Assembly: GCF_017569225.1 (NCBI RefSeq)
Contig: NZ_CP071868.1
Coordinates: 1,364,001 to 1,428,000 of the forward strand
Reading direction: 5' to 3'
From: Pengzhenrongella sicca
GTDB taxonomy: Bacteria > Actinomycetota > Actinomycetes > Actinomycetales > Cellulomonadaceae
DNA length: 64,000 nt
A program made the translations under genes and the position numbers. This document shows, piece after piece, positions 38,596 through 60,928 of the stretch (position 1 is the first letter of the stretch; each line of letters opens with the position of its first letter). The notes beneath the pieces were generated by a model, which saw only the letters and a program-made list of their open reading frames with translations, was not told the DNA's origin and ran no database searches.

Positions 38596-38666
38596 ATGGC
38601 TGCCCGATGAGCATCCAACGATGAGTTCCCAGCGATGAGTACCCAGCGATGAGTACCCAGCACTAA
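38596..38666 (+). other. Chain of five overlapping micro-ORFs in the infB leader
   Basis: Starting at ATG 38596 the frames MAAR (38596-38610), MSIQR (38607-38624), MSSQR (38621-38638), MSTQR (38635-38652) and MSTQH (38649-38666) follow one another, and each stop overlaps the next start as ATGA; the last ends in TAA. infB starts 42 nt further on with its own AGGAG. A GTG at 38559 also opens a 21-codon frame ending at the same TGA as MSIQR. Translation is unproven, but the arrangement would allow a re-initiating ribosome to step along the leader. Confidence 0.6.
38605..38660 (+). repeat. 14-bp tandem repeat, four copies, infB leader
   Basis: Four adjacent 14-bp units begin at 38605, 38619, 38633 and 38647. 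Their sequences are CGATGAGCATCCAA, CGATGAGTTCCCAG and CGATGAGTACCCAG (twice). The two last copies are identical, and the first differs most. The invariant CGATGAG supplies the ATGA overlaps of the micro-ORF chain. Confidence 0.97.
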
Positions 38667-46962: not shown

Positions 46963-47126
46963 GTTGCGAGGGCCCTGTGCCCCGCCCCCTAGACGTCACC
47001 TGCACAACCCACGCGCCGCCCCGGCTCCGCCGGTCCTCGGTAGTGGCCCGCGGAGCCTCGCTCCGCAGGCCTCCATCGAAGATCGCAACGAAGCGGTCGG
47101 CGCCTTCACGAAAGAGGAGGGTACCC

Positions 47127-49355
47127 ATGGAGGGTCCCGAGATCGAGTTCAGCGAAGCCATCATCGACAACGGCAAGTTCGGCAAGCGCACGGTGCGCTT
47201 CGAGACCGGGCGCCTCGCGCGCCAGGCCGCCGGCTCCGCCGTCGCCTACCTCGACGGCGAGACGATGCTCCTGTCGGCCACGACGGCCGGCAAGCACCCG
47301 AAGGAGCAGTTCGACTTCTTCCCGCTCACGGTCGACGTCGAGGAGCGGATGTACGCCGCCGGGCGCATCCCCGGCTCGTTCTTCCGCCGCGAGGGCCGCC
47401 CGTCCACCGAGGCGATCCTGGCGTGCCGCCTGATCGACCGCCCGCTGCGGCCGACCTTCATCAAGGGCCTGCGCAACGAGGTCCAGGTCGTCATCACGGT
47501 GATGGCGCTGCACCCCGACGACTCGTACGACACGCTCGCGATCAACGCCGCGTCGCTCAGCACGCAGCTGTCCGGCCTGCCGTTCGACGGCCCGATCGCC
47601 GGTGTGCGCATCGCGCTGGTCGACGGCCAGTGGATCGCGTTCCCGAAGTACTCCGACAAGGAGCGCGCCGTCTTCGACATGGTCGTCGCCGGTCGCATCG
47701 CTGGTGACGACGTCGCCATCATGATGGTCGAGGCCGAGGCCACGAACGATTCCTGGAACCTCATCTCCGAGGGTGCCGGCGCGCCGACCGAGGCCGTCGT
47801 CGCCGAGGGCCTCGAGGCCGCCAAGCCGTTCCTCAAGCTGCTCTGCGAGGCGCAGTCCGACCTCGCCGCTCGCGCCGCCAAGCCGGTCCGCGAGTTCCCG
47901 CGCTTCCTCGACTACCAGGACGACACGTACGCCGCCGTCAAGGCCGTCGTCGAGGCCGACCTCACCGTGGCGCTCACCATCGCGGACAAGCACGACCGCG
48001 AGGCGCGCCTCGACGAGATCAAGTCCGCCGCGGTCGCGCAGCTGTCCGGTCAGTTCGAGGGCCGCGAGAAGGAGCTGTCCGCGTCGGTTCGGGGCATCAC
48101 CAAGCAGCTCGTGCGCCAGCGCGTGCTCACGGACGGCGTCCGCATGGACGGCCGCGGGCTCGCGGACATCCGCACCCTGTCCGCCGAGGTCGAGGTCCTG
48201 CCCCGCGTGCACGGTTCGGCGCTGTTCGAGCGCGGCGAGACCCAGATCCTGGGCGTCACCACGCTGAACATGCTCCGCATGGAGCAGCAGCTGGACACGC
48301 TCGCGCCCGAGACGCGCAAGCGCTACATGCACAACTACAACTTCCCGCCCTACTCGACCGGGGAGACGGGCCGCGTCGGCTCGCCGAAGCGGCGCGAGAT
48401 CGGCCACGGCGCGCTCGCCGAGCGGGCGCTCATGCCCGTCCTGCCGAGCCGCGAGGAGTTCCCCTACGCGATCCGCCAGGTCTCCGAGGCGCTGGGCTCC
48501 AACGGCTCCACGTCGATGGGCTCGGTCTGCGCCTCGACCCTCTCGCTGCTCAACGCGGGCGTGCCGCTGCGCGCACCCGTCGCCGGCATCGCGATGGGCC
48601 TCATCTCCGACACGGTGAACGGTGAGACCCGCTACGCGGCCCTGACCGACATCCTCGGCGCCGAGGACGCGTTCGGCGACATGGACTTCAAGGTCGCCGG
48701 TACCCGCGAGTTCATCACGGCCATCCAGCTCGACACCAAGATCGCCGGCATCCCGGCGTCGGTGCTCGCGTCGGCCCTGACCCAGGCCCGCGACGCGCGC
48801 CTGGCGATCCTCGACGTGCTGGCCGAGGCCATCGACGTCCCGGACGAGATGTCCCCGAACGCCCCCCGCGTCATCTCCGTGAAGGTGCCGATCGACAAGA
48901 TCGGCGAGGTCATCGGGCCGAAGGGCAAGATGATCAACCAGATCCAGGAGGAGACCGGCGCCGACATCTCCATCGAGGACGACGGCACGGTCTACATCGG
49001 CGCGACCGACGGCCCGTCGGCCGAGGCCGCTCGGGCCGCGATCAACGCCATCGCCAACCCGATGATGCCGGAGATCGGCGAGCGCTTCGTGGGCACCGTG
49101 GTCAAGACCACGACCTTCGGCGCGTTCATCTCGCTCTCGCCGGGCAAGGACGGGCTGCTGCACATCTCGCAGATCCGCAAGCTCGTCGGTGGCAAGCGTG
49201 TCGAGAACGTCGAGGACGTCCTGACCGTGGGCCAGAAGGTCCAGGTCGAGATCGGCGAGATCGACCCGCGCGGCAAGCTGTCGCTGCACGCCGTGGTCGA
49301 GGGTGACGACGCGGCGGAGTCCTCCGCCGCCGTGCCGGCGAACGCCGACGTCTGA
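47127..49355 (+). CDS. pnp: Polynucleotide phosphorylase
   Basis: This 3'-5' phosphorolytic exoribonuclease of 742 residues has two RNase PH domains (about 10-150 and 345-570; [20 protein letters not shown] in the first, [18 protein letters not shown] in the second). A helical linker joins them. A KH domain ([20 protein letters not shown]) and a C-terminal S1 domain ([27 protein letters not shown], quoted as [19 protein letters not shown]) complete it. ATG 47127 follows GAGGAGG. Confidence 0.97.
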
Positions 49356-56916: not shown

Positions 56917-57723
56917 ATGACGGCACCCGTACGCACCCAGTACGAGGACCTGCTGCGGCTGGTGCTCGAGACCGGGACCCCGAAGGCGGACCGCACCGGC
57001 ACCGGCACGCGGAGCCTGTTCGGTCACCAGCTCCGCTTCGACCTGAGCGAGGGGTTCCCGCTCGTGACGACCAAGCGGGTGCACCTGAAGTCGATCGTGT
57101 ACGAGCTGCTGTGGTTCCTGCGCGGCGACTCCAACGTGACGTGGCTCCAGGAGCGCGGCGTCAAGATCTGGGACGAGTGGGCTGGCCCCGACGGCGACCT
57201 CGGGCCCGTCTACGGCGTGCAGTGGCGGTCCTGGCCGACGCCGGACGGCGGCCACATCGACCAGATCACGCAGGTGCTCGAGACGCTGCGCACCGACCCC
57301 GACTCGCGCCGGATGGTCGTGTCCGCCTGGAACGTCGCCGAGATCCCGAAAATGGCGCTCGCGCCGTGCCACGCGTTCTTCCAGTTCTACGTCGCCGACG
57401 GCAAGCTGTCGTGCCAGCTGTACCAGCGCAGCGCCGACCTGTTCCTCGGGGTCCCCTTCAACATCGCGAGCTACGCCCTGCTCACCCACATGGTGGCCGC
57501 CCAGGCCGGGCTCGAGGTCGGCGAGTTCGTGTGGACCGGGGGCGACTGCCACCTCTACGACAACCACGTCGACCAGGCCCGCGAGCAGCTCGCGCGCGAG
57601 CCCTTCCCGTTCCCGACGCTGCGCCTGCACCCCGCCGCGACGATCTTCGACTACGCCTACGACGACGTCGAGGTCGTCGGCTACCAGCACCACGCCGCGA
57701 TCAAGGCGCCCGTCGCCGTATGA
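56917..57723 (+). CDS. thyA: Thymidylate synthase
   Basis: It methylates dUMP to dTMP with methylene-tetrahydrofolate. The 268-residue protein has [38 protein letters not shown], the nucleophile C151 in [12 protein letters not shown] and [20 protein letters not shown]. The TGA overlaps folA (ATGA at 57720-57723), a natural pairing since ThyA yields dihydrofolate that FolA reduces. Confidence 0.97.
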
Positions 57724-58247
57724 CCGTCGCGCTCGTCTGGGCGCAGGCCCGCGCGCTCGACGGCGGGCCGGCGATCATCGGCGCCGGCGGCGCGCTGCCG
57801 TGGCACCTGCCCGCGGACCTGGCTCACTTCCGCGCCCTGACGACCGGCCGGCCGGTGCTGATGGGCCGGCTCACCTGGGAGTCCCTGCCGGCCCGGTTCC
57901 GGCCGCTCCCGGGGCGCACCAACCTCGTGCTCAGCCGGAGGCCGGGATTCGAGGCCCCCGGCGCTGTCGTCGTGCCCGACCTCGGGGCGGCCCTCGCGCT
58001 CGCCGACGACGGCGCGGGGGAGGTGTGGATCATCGGCGGCGCGCAGCTGTACGCCGCGACGATCGACCGGGCGCACCGCCTCGAGGTCACCGAGATCGAC
58101 CTCGACCTCGACGGCGACGCGCGTGCGCCGGCGATCGGCGCCGGCTGGCACCGGGACGCGACCGCCTGGCACACGCTCGACGCGGGCCCGCGATACCGCT
58201 TCGTCACCTACACGCGGGCCCCCCGCCCCGAGCCGCCGAGGGCCTGA
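57720..58247 (+). CDS. folA: Dihydrofolate reductase
   Basis: It reduces dihydrofolate to tetrahydrofolate with NADPH. The 175-residue protein shows [13 protein letters not shown], the substrate loop [34 protein letters not shown] and [17 protein letters not shown]. It is translationally coupled to thyA. Confidence 0.95.
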
Positions 58248-58285
58248 CCGGCCGGGCCGGCGGGCTCCGCAGCGCGGCCGGCGGG

Positions 58286-58291
58286 TATCTT
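58286..58291 (+). promoter_or_regulatory. -10 element for a leaderless dapA transcript
   Basis: TATCTT is followed by six bases (GGCCCC) and the ATG of dapA at 58298. No ribosome-binding site is present. Confidence 0.6.
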
Positions 58292-58297
58292 GGCCCC

Positions 58298-59206
58298 ATG
58301 TCTCACGTCTCGTCGTCGCGCCCGTTCGGCGCCGTGCTCACCGCCATGGTCACCCCGATGACGGCCGACGGCGCCGTCGACCTCGCGGCCGCCGCGCGCC
58401 TGGCCCAGCACCTCGTCGACCACGGCCACGACGGCCTGGTCCTCAACGGGACGACGGGGGAGTCGCCCACGACCCACACGCCCGAGAAGTCCGACCTCAT
58501 CGCCGCGGTCGTCGCGGCCGTGGGTGACCGCGCCGTCGTCGTCGCGGGCGCCGGATCGAACGACACCGCGCACGCCGTCCGGATCGCCGAGCAGGCCGCG
58601 GCCGCCGGGGCGCACGGGCTGCTCGTCGTCAGCCCCTACTACTCCCGGCCCTCGCAGGAGGGCATCTACCAGCACACGGTCGCCGTCGCTGACGCGACCG
58701 CCCTGCGCGTCATGCTCTACGACGTGCCCGGGCGGACCGTCGTGCGGTACTCGGCGCAGACGCTCGACCGGCTCGCGGACCACCCGAACGTCGTCGCCGT
58801 CAAGGATGCGACGGGCGACGTGTACGGCGCCGCGCGGACGATGGCCCGCACAGGGCTCGCGTACTACTGCGGCGACGACCCGCTGAACCTGGCGTTCCTG
58901 GCGCACGGCGCCGCCGGGATCGTGAGCATGGTCGGGCACATCGCGGGCGACGAGCTGGCGGCGATGGTCGCGGCCGTCGACGCGGGCGATCTCGCGCTCG
59001 CGCGGGCGACCTTCGTCGCGATGCTGCCGAAGATCGAGCTCATCTGCGGGTCCGGCAACGGCGCCGTGCGCGCCAAGGCGGTGCTCGAGCTCGCCGGCGT
59101 GATCCCGTCCCGGGCGATGCGGCTGCCGCAGGTCGCCGCGGACGCCGACGAGCTCGAGGTCGTGCGGGCCGCCATGGTCACCGCGGGCCTGCTCGTCGCG
59201 CTGTGA
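58298..59206 (+). CDS. dapA: 4-hydroxy-tetrahydrodipicolinate synthase
   Basis: It condenses pyruvate with aspartate semialdehyde, the first step of the diaminopimelate/lysine branch. The 302-residue TIM-barrel protein has GLVLNGTTGESPT, the proton-relay tyrosines in SPYYSRP and LYDVPGRT, and the Schiff-base lysine K169 in VAVKDATGD. It is followed by two micro-ORFs that link it to RNase J, an order often seen in actinobacteria. Confidence 0.96.
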   Translation: MSHVSSSRPFGAVLTAMVTPMTADGAVDLAAAARLAQHLVDHGHDGLVLNGTTGESPTTHTPEKSDLIAAVVAAVGDRAVVVAGAGSNDTAHAVRIAEQAAAAGAHGLLVVSPYYSRPSQEGIYQHTVAVADATALRVMLYDVPGRTVVRYSAQTLDRLADHPNVVAVKDATGDVYGAARTMARTGLAYYCGDDPLNLAFLAHGAAGIVSMVGHIAGDELAAMVAAVDAGDLALARATFVAMLPKIELICGSGNGAVRAKAVLELAGVIPSRAMRLPQVAADADELEVVRAAMVTAGLLVAL

Positions 59207-59234
59207 GAACCGCACTGTGACGACGACGCTGTGA
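59203..59234 (+). other. Two chained 5-codon micro-ORFs between dapA and RNase J gene
   Basis: GTG at 59203 overlaps the dapA stop and opens VRTAL (59203-59220). Its TGA overlaps GTG at 59217, which opens VTTTL (59217-59234), and that TGA overlaps GTG 59231, the start of the RNase J gene. The three GTGA sites are exactly 14 nt apart, and the two 14-nt units match at 9 of 14 positions. There is no clear ribosome-binding site, so re-initiation would be needed. Confidence 0.55.
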
Positions 59235-60928
59235 CGACCATGTTCCACCCGCACCCCGAGCTCGAGCTTCCGCCGCCGCTCGCCGACGGCGCGCTGCGCA
59301 TCGTCGCGCTCGGCGGCCTCGGCGAGATCGGTCGCAACATGACCGTCTTCGAGCACGGCGGGCGGCTGCTCGTGGTCGACTGCGGCGTGCTGTTCCCCGA
59401 GGAGACCCAGCCCGGCGTCGACCTGATCCTGCCGGACTTCAGCTACCTCGCCGACCGGCTCGAGGACATCGAGGCCATCGTGCTCACGCACGGGCACGAG
59501 GACCACATCGGCGCCGTGCCGTACCTGCTGCGCCTGCGCGGCGACATCCCGCTCATCGGCTCGCAGCTCACGCTCGCGTTCCTCGAGGCGAAGCTCAAGG
59601 AGTTCCACCTCGACTCGCTCACGATGGTCGTCGCCGCGGGTCAGACCGAGCAGGTCGGCCCGTTCGAGTGCGAGTTCGTCGCGGTCAACCACTCGATCCC
59701 CGACGCGCTCGCCGTCGCGGTGCGCACCGCGGCCGGCACCGTGCTGCACACGGGCGACTTCAAGATGGACCAGCTCCCGCTCGACGGCCGGGTCACCGAC
59801 CTGCGCGCGTTCGCCCGGCTCGGCGAGGCCGGCGTCGACCTGTTCATGGTCGACTCCACGAACGCCGAGGTGCCGGGCTTCGTCACGCCGGAGCGCGAGA
59901 TCGGCCCGGTGCTCGACGCGGTCTTCGCGGCCTCCTCCCGGCGCATCGTCGTCGCGTCGTTCTCCTCGCACGTGCACCGCGTGCAGCAGGTGCTCGACGC
60001 CGCGGCGTCGCACGGCCGGCGCGTCGCCCTGGTCGGGCGGTCGATGGTCCGGAACATGACGATCGCCGCCGACCTCGGCTACCTGACCGTCCCGACCGGC
60101 GTGCTGGTCGACGTCAAGAAGGTCGACGCCCTGCCCGACGACGAGGTCGTGCTGATGTGCACGGGCTCGCAGGGCGAGCCGATGGCGGCGCTGTCGCGGA
60201 TCGCGAACAACGACCATTTCCGCATCTCGGTCGGGCCGGGGGACACCGTGATCCTCGCGTCCTCGCTCATCCCGGGCAACGAGAACGCCGTCTACCGCGT
60301 GATCAACGGCTTGACCCGGCTGGGCGCGAAAGTCGTGCACAGCGGGACCGCGAAGGTGCACGTGTCCGGTCACGCCAGCGCCGGCGAGCTCCTGTACTGC
60401 TACAACATCGTCCGCCCGCGCAACGTGCTGCCGGTGCACGGCGAGATGCGGCACCTCGTGGCCAATGGCGAGCTCGCCGTCGCGACCGGCGTCGCGCCGG
60501 AGGCGGTGCTCATCGCCGAGGCAGGCGTCGTCGTCGACCTCGCAGACGGCCACGCCCAGATCGTCGGCGCCGTGCCGTGCGGGTACGTGTACGTCGACGG
60601 CTCGAGCGTCGGGGGCGTGACCGAGGCCGAGCTCAAGGACCGCCGGATCCTGGGCGAGGAGGGCTTCGTCTCGATCTTCGCCGTCGTCGACTCCGGCACC
60701 GGCAAGGTGCTGGCGGGCCCGCATATCCAGGCGCGCGGCTTCGCGGAGGACGACGCGGTGTTCGACGAGATCCTCCCGCAGGTCACCGCCGCGCTGCAGG
60801 AGGCGACGCTCGCGGGAGCCATCGACGCCCAGCAGCTGCAGCAGGTCGTCCGCCGCGTCGTCGGCAAGTGGGTGTCCGCCAAGCTCGGTCGCCGCCCGCT
60901 CATCCTGCCGGTGGTCGTCGCGGCCTGA
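59231..60928 (+). CDS. rnj: Ribonuclease J
   Basis: This metallo-beta-lactamase/beta-CASP nuclease has 5'-3' exonuclease and endonuclease activity in RNA decay and processing. The 565-residue protein has the metal-binding motif HGHEDHIGAVPYLL (H87, H89, D91, H92), FKMDQLPLDG, and a beta-CASP region with VVASFSSHVHRVQQVLDAA. The C-terminal domain ends RPLILPVVV. The start is GTG 59231; ATG at 59240 is an alternative in the same frame. Confidence 0.94.
   Translation: MTTMFHPHPELELPPPLADGALRIVALGGLGEIGRNMTVFEHGGRLLVVDCGVLFPEETQPGVDLILPDFSYLADRLEDIEAIVLTHGHEDHIGAVPYLLRLRGDIPLIGSQLTLAFLEAKLKEFHLDSLTMVVAAGQTEQVGPFECEFVAVNHSIPDALAVAVRTAAGTVLHTGDFKMDQLPLDGRVTDLRAFARLGEAGVDLFMVDSTNAEVPGFVTPEREIGPVLDAVFAASSRRIVVASFSSHVHRVQQVLDAAASHGRRVALVGRSMVRNMTIAADLGYLTVPTGVLVDVKKVDALPDDEVVLMCTGSQGEPMAALSRIANNDHFRISVGPGDTVILASSLIPGNENAVYRVINGLTRLGAKVVHSGTAKVHVSGHASAGELLYCYNIVRPRNVLPVHGEMRHLVANGELAVATGVAPEAVLIAEAGVVVDLADGHAQIVGAVPCGYVYVDGSSVGGVTEAELKDRRILGEEGFVSIFAVVDSGTGKVLAGPHIQARGFAEDDAVFDEILPQVTAALQEATLAGAIDAQQLQQVVRRVVGKWVSAKLGRRPLILPVVVAA

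Follow-up and report, generated by a model that had tools for sequence, protein, structure and literature searches.

A chain of GTGA stop/start overlaps between dapA and the RNase J gene of Pengzhenrongella sicca: probably a chance product at an ordinary junction

Layout of the junction

The junction described here lies in a 64,000-nucleotide stretch of the Pengzhenrongella sicca genome (contig NZ_CP071868.1, positions 1,364,001 to 1,428,000, forward strand), which we call the window and whose own numbering is used throughout. It separates dapA from an RNase J gene, and its features are collected in Table 1. The two genes are adjacent and co-directional by the gene calls, and the site scan places no terminator-like site between them; in the region scanned (58200-59400) none was found and none was expected. 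The downstream product passes the RNase J profile test (TIGR00649, 475 bits with a cut-off of 400), and it is below threshold for the narrower RnjA model, at 556.1 of 820.

The coding sequence of dapA closes with GCG CTG TGA, the stop codon occupying 59204-59206. GTGA is found at 59203, 59217 and 59231, and each TGA ends the preceding frame, namely dapA itself, a first candidate mini-frame (stop at 59218-59220) and a second one (stop at 59232-59234). The coordinates, frames and overlaps of this chain were given correctly in an earlier sequence-only reading, which had supposed that translation of RNase J might depend wholly on stepwise re-initiation along it. The third GTG is in the RNase J frame, as is an ATG three codons further 3', at 59240; the gap from the dapA stop to this ATG is +33 nt.

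Table 1. Features at the dapA-RNase J junction (window coordinates)
Feature	Position	Strand	Basis or remark
dapA (4-hydroxy-tetrahydrodipicolinate synthase)	58298..59206	+	NCBIfam TIGR00674 above cut-off; gene call with the same coordinates
Predicted RNA hairpin, dapA end plus repeat	59173..59242	+	-33.8 kcal/mol; the outer stem includes ATG 59240
Degenerate 14-nt tandem repeat, three units (CTGTGA...)	59201..59242	+	Local shuffle test
Mini-frame 1, MRTAL* (candidate)	59203..59220	+	GTG start shares 4 nt with the dapA stop
Mini-frame 2, MTTTL* (candidate)	59217..59234	+	GTG start overlaps the mini-frame 1 stop
GTG in the RNase J frame, alternative start at most	59231..59233	+	Chosen by the gene caller
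RNase J coding sequence from the likeliest start, ATG 59240	59240..60928	+	N-terminus MFHPHPEL; MSHPHPEL in many relatives

For comparison we used 132 RNase J loci, the window included, all oriented to one strand; loci of second RNase J copies had been excluded, as had one weak match and the pattern matches. The nearest genomes compared share 81-84% identity in RNase J with the window. A same-strand dapA match is present at 128 of the 132 loci, with its stop lying anywhere from 164 nt ahead of the RNase J start position to 3 nt past it. No RNase J-dapA operon is named among the literature matches listed; judged by their titles, the closest of these deal with replication stress or the processing of forks. 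Another copy of RNase J, with 63% identity to that of the window, is located at G000:C1:4124051-4125718, and two strong RNase J matches are present in each of the five genomes of the genus that were compared.

The start of RNase J

Alignment of the relatives indicates that RNase J most likely starts at ATG 59240 and not at GTG 59231, because in 57 of the 58 loci with at least 75% identity (window included) a start codon stands at precisely the position of ATG 59240. This codon is ATG in 27 cases, GTG in 23 and TTG in 7, and it is mostly followed by an N-terminus resembling SHPHPEL. The 58 loci include two pairs of identical junctions and so represent 56 distinct ones. In the single exception (L004) the start lies three codons upstream of that position, where no start is present, apparently as the result of an N-terminal indel; within this set a start three codons upstream is found only there and in the window. 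When all 132 loci are taken, distant ones with differing N-termini included, the 59240 place is occupied by a start in 82 and the 59231 place in 4.

In the close relatives nothing corresponds visibly to the residues VTT that would precede ATG 59240. Our own gene caller chose 59231, but it maximises coding score alone and knows no homology. The start at GTG 59231 proposed by the sequence-only reading is not supported by the close loci, and the annotation of RNase J should begin at ATG 59240.

A degenerate tandem repeat

The three 14-mers counted from 59201 are a real but degenerate tandem repeat, locally beyond chance. Units 1 and 2 match at 9 of 14 positions, as do units 1 and 3, and to this extent an earlier figure of 9 matches in 14 holds; it understates units 2 and 3, which match at 12. 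When the 54-nt junction was dinucleotide-shuffled 2000 times, no shuffle reached similarity of this degree at any period from 9 to 20. In the same shuffles a 14-spaced RTGA triple appeared in 0.1%, and an equally spaced RTGA triple with any spacing from 8 to 20 in 1.6%. Tandem Repeats Finder, run at a score of 30, does not report the repeat. The pattern GTGA-N10-GTGA-N10-GTG occurs a single time in the window, for a mean of 0.00 over 100 shuffles. In the genome as a whole it does not stand alone: 6 RTGA-triple matches fall at 3 places there, as against 2 for the mirrored control. The repeat reads as an old micro-duplication that has degenerated.

A kinship with the leader of infB, which lies in the same window, had been suggested. 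The infB leader repeat (about 38605-38661) does share the 14-nt period and the overlap of stop and start in successive units. However, it is better preserved (4.1 copies, 88% matches) and has ATGA in each unit, and the infB start itself, GTG 38709, stands 47 nt after the repeat behind its own strong Shine-Dalgarno sequence (-9.8 kcal/mol), unlike that of RNase J. The likeness is not supported.

The chain in relatives

Among the loci compared, the triple chain is a peculiarity of the window. In the 60 nt ahead of RNase J it was found at none of the 131 other loci, and for these loci we reject conservation of the chain as a 14-nt GTGA regulatory array at this junction (1 of 132, the window itself). 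Single 14-nt steps near the start do occur at four loci (L061, L076, L081 and L086), three of them from Terrabacter. As the relatives examined have no such chain here, it has probably arisen by accident, at a junction that is otherwise ordinary.

A looser form of sharing was also considered, in which mini-frames of any length bridge the gap by steps of -4 to +6 nt. Among the 54 distinct junctions whose gap measures 11-120 nt, 9 have such a bridge, where shuffled spacers give an expectation of 5.98; this is not clearly beyond chance, and bridges as a shared function were likewise set aside. The window's own spacer yields a bridge in a fraction of 0.23 of its shuffles.

GTGA patterns elsewhere in the family

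At each of the four spacings compared, GTGA tandem patterns are in excess. A GTGA triple is found in 47 of 61 family genomes at spacing 13, in 53 at 14, in 42 at 16 and in 53 at 17, and the summed matches exceed those of the mirrored control throughout (121 versus 29 at 13 nt, 227 versus 42 at 14 nt, 149 versus 60 at 16 nt, 151 versus 31 at 17 nt), the total of 227 counting overlapping matches in long 7-nt-repeat arrays many times, uncollapsed. One genome has 27 spacing-14 matches, nearly all of them inside one 7-nt repeat. As for a mild preference for 14 nt, the genome counts show none, and the uncollapsed raw totals favour 14. The genome counts do show a mild excess for the two chain-keeping spacings, 14 and 17, over 13 and 16.

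The surroundings of 33 arrays were determined with a simple codon-usage gene caller, which in the window had picked up dapA, infB and RNase J. The arrays comprise 12 automatic loci, 20 chosen by hand (mostly near-perfect repeats) and 1 from the genome itself. Relative to the strand of the array, the flanking genes are arranged ++ in 13 cases, -- in 8, +- in 7 and -+ in 2, with 3 arrays overlapping a gene; the next downstream gene is on the strand of the array in 15, on the other strand in 15 and overlapping in 3. In 8 of the 33, a co-directional gene has its stop codon in overlap with the first unit, and in 5 a called gene start coincides with the last GTG. Both features are combined in one array only (L165, G034:C3 near 450685), whose layout is that of the window, consisting of an upstream gene's stop, a pair of identical GTGACGGACACGTC units and a third GTG that is called as a gene start.

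Shine-Dalgarno pairing and the 33-nt gap

Pairing was measured as the duplex energy between the stretch 4-20 nt before a start and the 16S tail, the latter confirmed in the genome's own 16S. The earlier impression that RNase J has no visible ribosome-binding site is borne out: 59231 and 59240 each give -3.4 kcal/mol, the weakest pairing of 79 RNase J junctions, and the median is -7.4 kcal/mol among the 58 junctions with an identity of 75% after rounding. With the same identity limit, 47 junctions have a gap longer than 10 nt, and of these the window alone has pairing no better than -3.5. The second weakest site, in a member of the same genus (L002), has -4.3 kcal/mol and a 17-nt gap, and has no chain. 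Nine of the 55 genes called in the window, RNase J included, have no start between -45 and +60 nt of the called one with pairing better than -3.5 kcal/mol, and weak sites are therefore tolerated here. The weakness of the site, together with the co-directional neighbour, makes help from the translation of dapA plausible.

What such help could amount to depends on distance. In published work, native pairs nearly lose re-initiation coupling at gaps of about 20 nt, and a 38-nt gap brings a loss of 80-90%, or complete loss, in three E. coli pairs (PMC10666635); a review gives a 3- to 10-fold loss near +40 nt, dependent on context (PMC12548453). The first of these papers also cites opposite findings, with coupling across long gaps. 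Given the losses at about 20-38 nt (PMC10666635), a direct jump over 33 nt would be inefficient. The distance of about -8 to +10 nt that the same source gives for coupled pairs is exceeded by the +33 nt found here, and the junction would come within it only if the mini-frames were translated.

This is the main reason why the idea of a relay stays alive. A ribosome leaving dapA might restart at GTG 59203 and then at GTG 59217, and so be delivered within 5 nt of ATG 59240 or onto GTG 59231, steps of 4-nt overlap taking the place of the inefficient jump. The geometry for this is exact, the Shine-Dalgarno pairing of the window is the poorest in the comparison, and in published work re-initiation falls steeply with distance, while the final 15 nt of an upstream gene are sufficient (PMC10666635). 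Nevertheless, we consider stepping stones of this kind unlikely: no other RNase J locus has the triple, bridges of any length are not clearly more frequent than shuffling predicts, each step uses GTG with weak pairing (-2.5 and -3.7 kcal/mol at 59203 and 59217, and the value already given at 59231), and the gene downstream of arrays elsewhere lies as often on the opposite strand. The evolutionary version, that a lineage which nearly lost the Shine-Dalgarno sequence of RNase J spans a too-long gap by two duplicated five-codon frames relaying the dapA ribosome, strikes us as improbable. If a relay were real, micro-duplication would be a simple way to gain coupling without gene overlap or a ribosome-binding site.

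Known systems offer partial parallels. In termination-reinitiation coupling at NTGA, a 4-nt overlap (PMC6728339, PMC10666635, PMC12548453) we find, as here, the sharing of stop and start at each step (GTGA), co-directional genes and a weak Shine-Dalgarno sequence; but the known pairs join two real genes, whereas the junction here has two frames of five codons, and the likely real start of RNase J sits outside the overlap. The upstream non-functional ORF boosters of PMC13255528 are alike in being short, meaningless frames just 5' of a gene, but are synthetic and have a strong internal ribosome-binding site beside the stop, of which none is seen here. Among the literature matches listed (title and start of abstract) there is no natural tandem-repeat relay of re-initiation through short ORFs.

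Interpretation

We favour, with a probability of about 0.6, an ordinary dapA-RNase J operon junction at which RNase J starts at ATG 59240 with the assistance of dapA, and at which the mini-frames are a by-product of duplication. The two genes would share one transcript. The spacer of this lineage has the degenerate 14-nt tandem repeat, presumably an old micro-duplication, and a very weak Shine-Dalgarno sequence; with CTGTGA inside the unit that is repeated, each copy brings along an overlapping stop and start, giving two five-codon frames that would themselves be without function. Ribosomes finishing dapA, 33 nt upstream, would help RNase J by opening local structure, by local re-initiation or by both, and some direct initiation would add to this. 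RNase J is probably coupled to dapA translation, and the direct 33-nt route, opening of the hairpin and weak direct initiation are each a possible path. A striking chain of overlaps in GC-rich DNA can arise as a side effect of short tandem duplication when the unit includes GTGA.

Several observations count against this ordinary junction. The only junction with both a long gap and weak pairing is also the only one with the triple chain, and this coincidence of weak pairing, long gap and triple chain is what a functional bridge would give. A direct jump over 33 nt would be inefficient at the published losses. The raw totals of matches peak at spacing 14, though with the multiple counting described above. 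The nearest genomes, at 81-84% identity in RNase J, are rather distant. Finally, the hairpin is not significant: five cuts gave z-scores of -1.74, -1.34, -0.58, +1.26 and -1.75, and a 121-nt stretch gave -0.95.

The hairpin also enters a sharper form of one part of the favoured explanation. The end of dapA would pair with the repeat and hide ATG 59240, a ribosome reading dapA would open the stem, and fresh ribosomes would then start RNase J, leaving the mini-frames no role. ATG 59240 is indeed paired within the predicted stem with a probability of 1.0, a value that ranks with the three highest of 57 loci, and RNA unfolding is one of the two models in the field (PMC12548453). Such a gate is nonetheless hard to credit, since the z-score shifts with the cut across the range above and fresh ribosomes would have only a weak Shine-Dalgarno sequence to bind.

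Expression independent of dapA, from a promoter or processing site within that gene, would produce an RNase J mRNA that begins at or close to ATG 59240, with a short leader or none, and that would need no Shine-Dalgarno sequence. Leaderless mRNAs are frequent in an actinobacterium, 264 of them being reported in S. coelicolor (PMC4681348). We hold this to be quite unlikely, as there are 0 promoter-like matches in 58200-59400 (a weak test, with 0.0 expected in shuffles and a scan that knows only the sigma-70 consensus) and no TANNNT-like element is visible by eye just upstream of 59240.

No Rfam family reaches its gathering score at the junction in the part of the window scanned (37000-61500). 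Within that part an Actino-pnp RNA (RF01688) lies at 47029-47087, just 5' of a gene called at 47127. Just upstream of dapA, the genes for thymidylate synthase and a dihydrofolate-reductase-like protein overlap by ATGA at 57720-57723 with weak pairing (-3.0), and are a plain candidate for a coupled pair.
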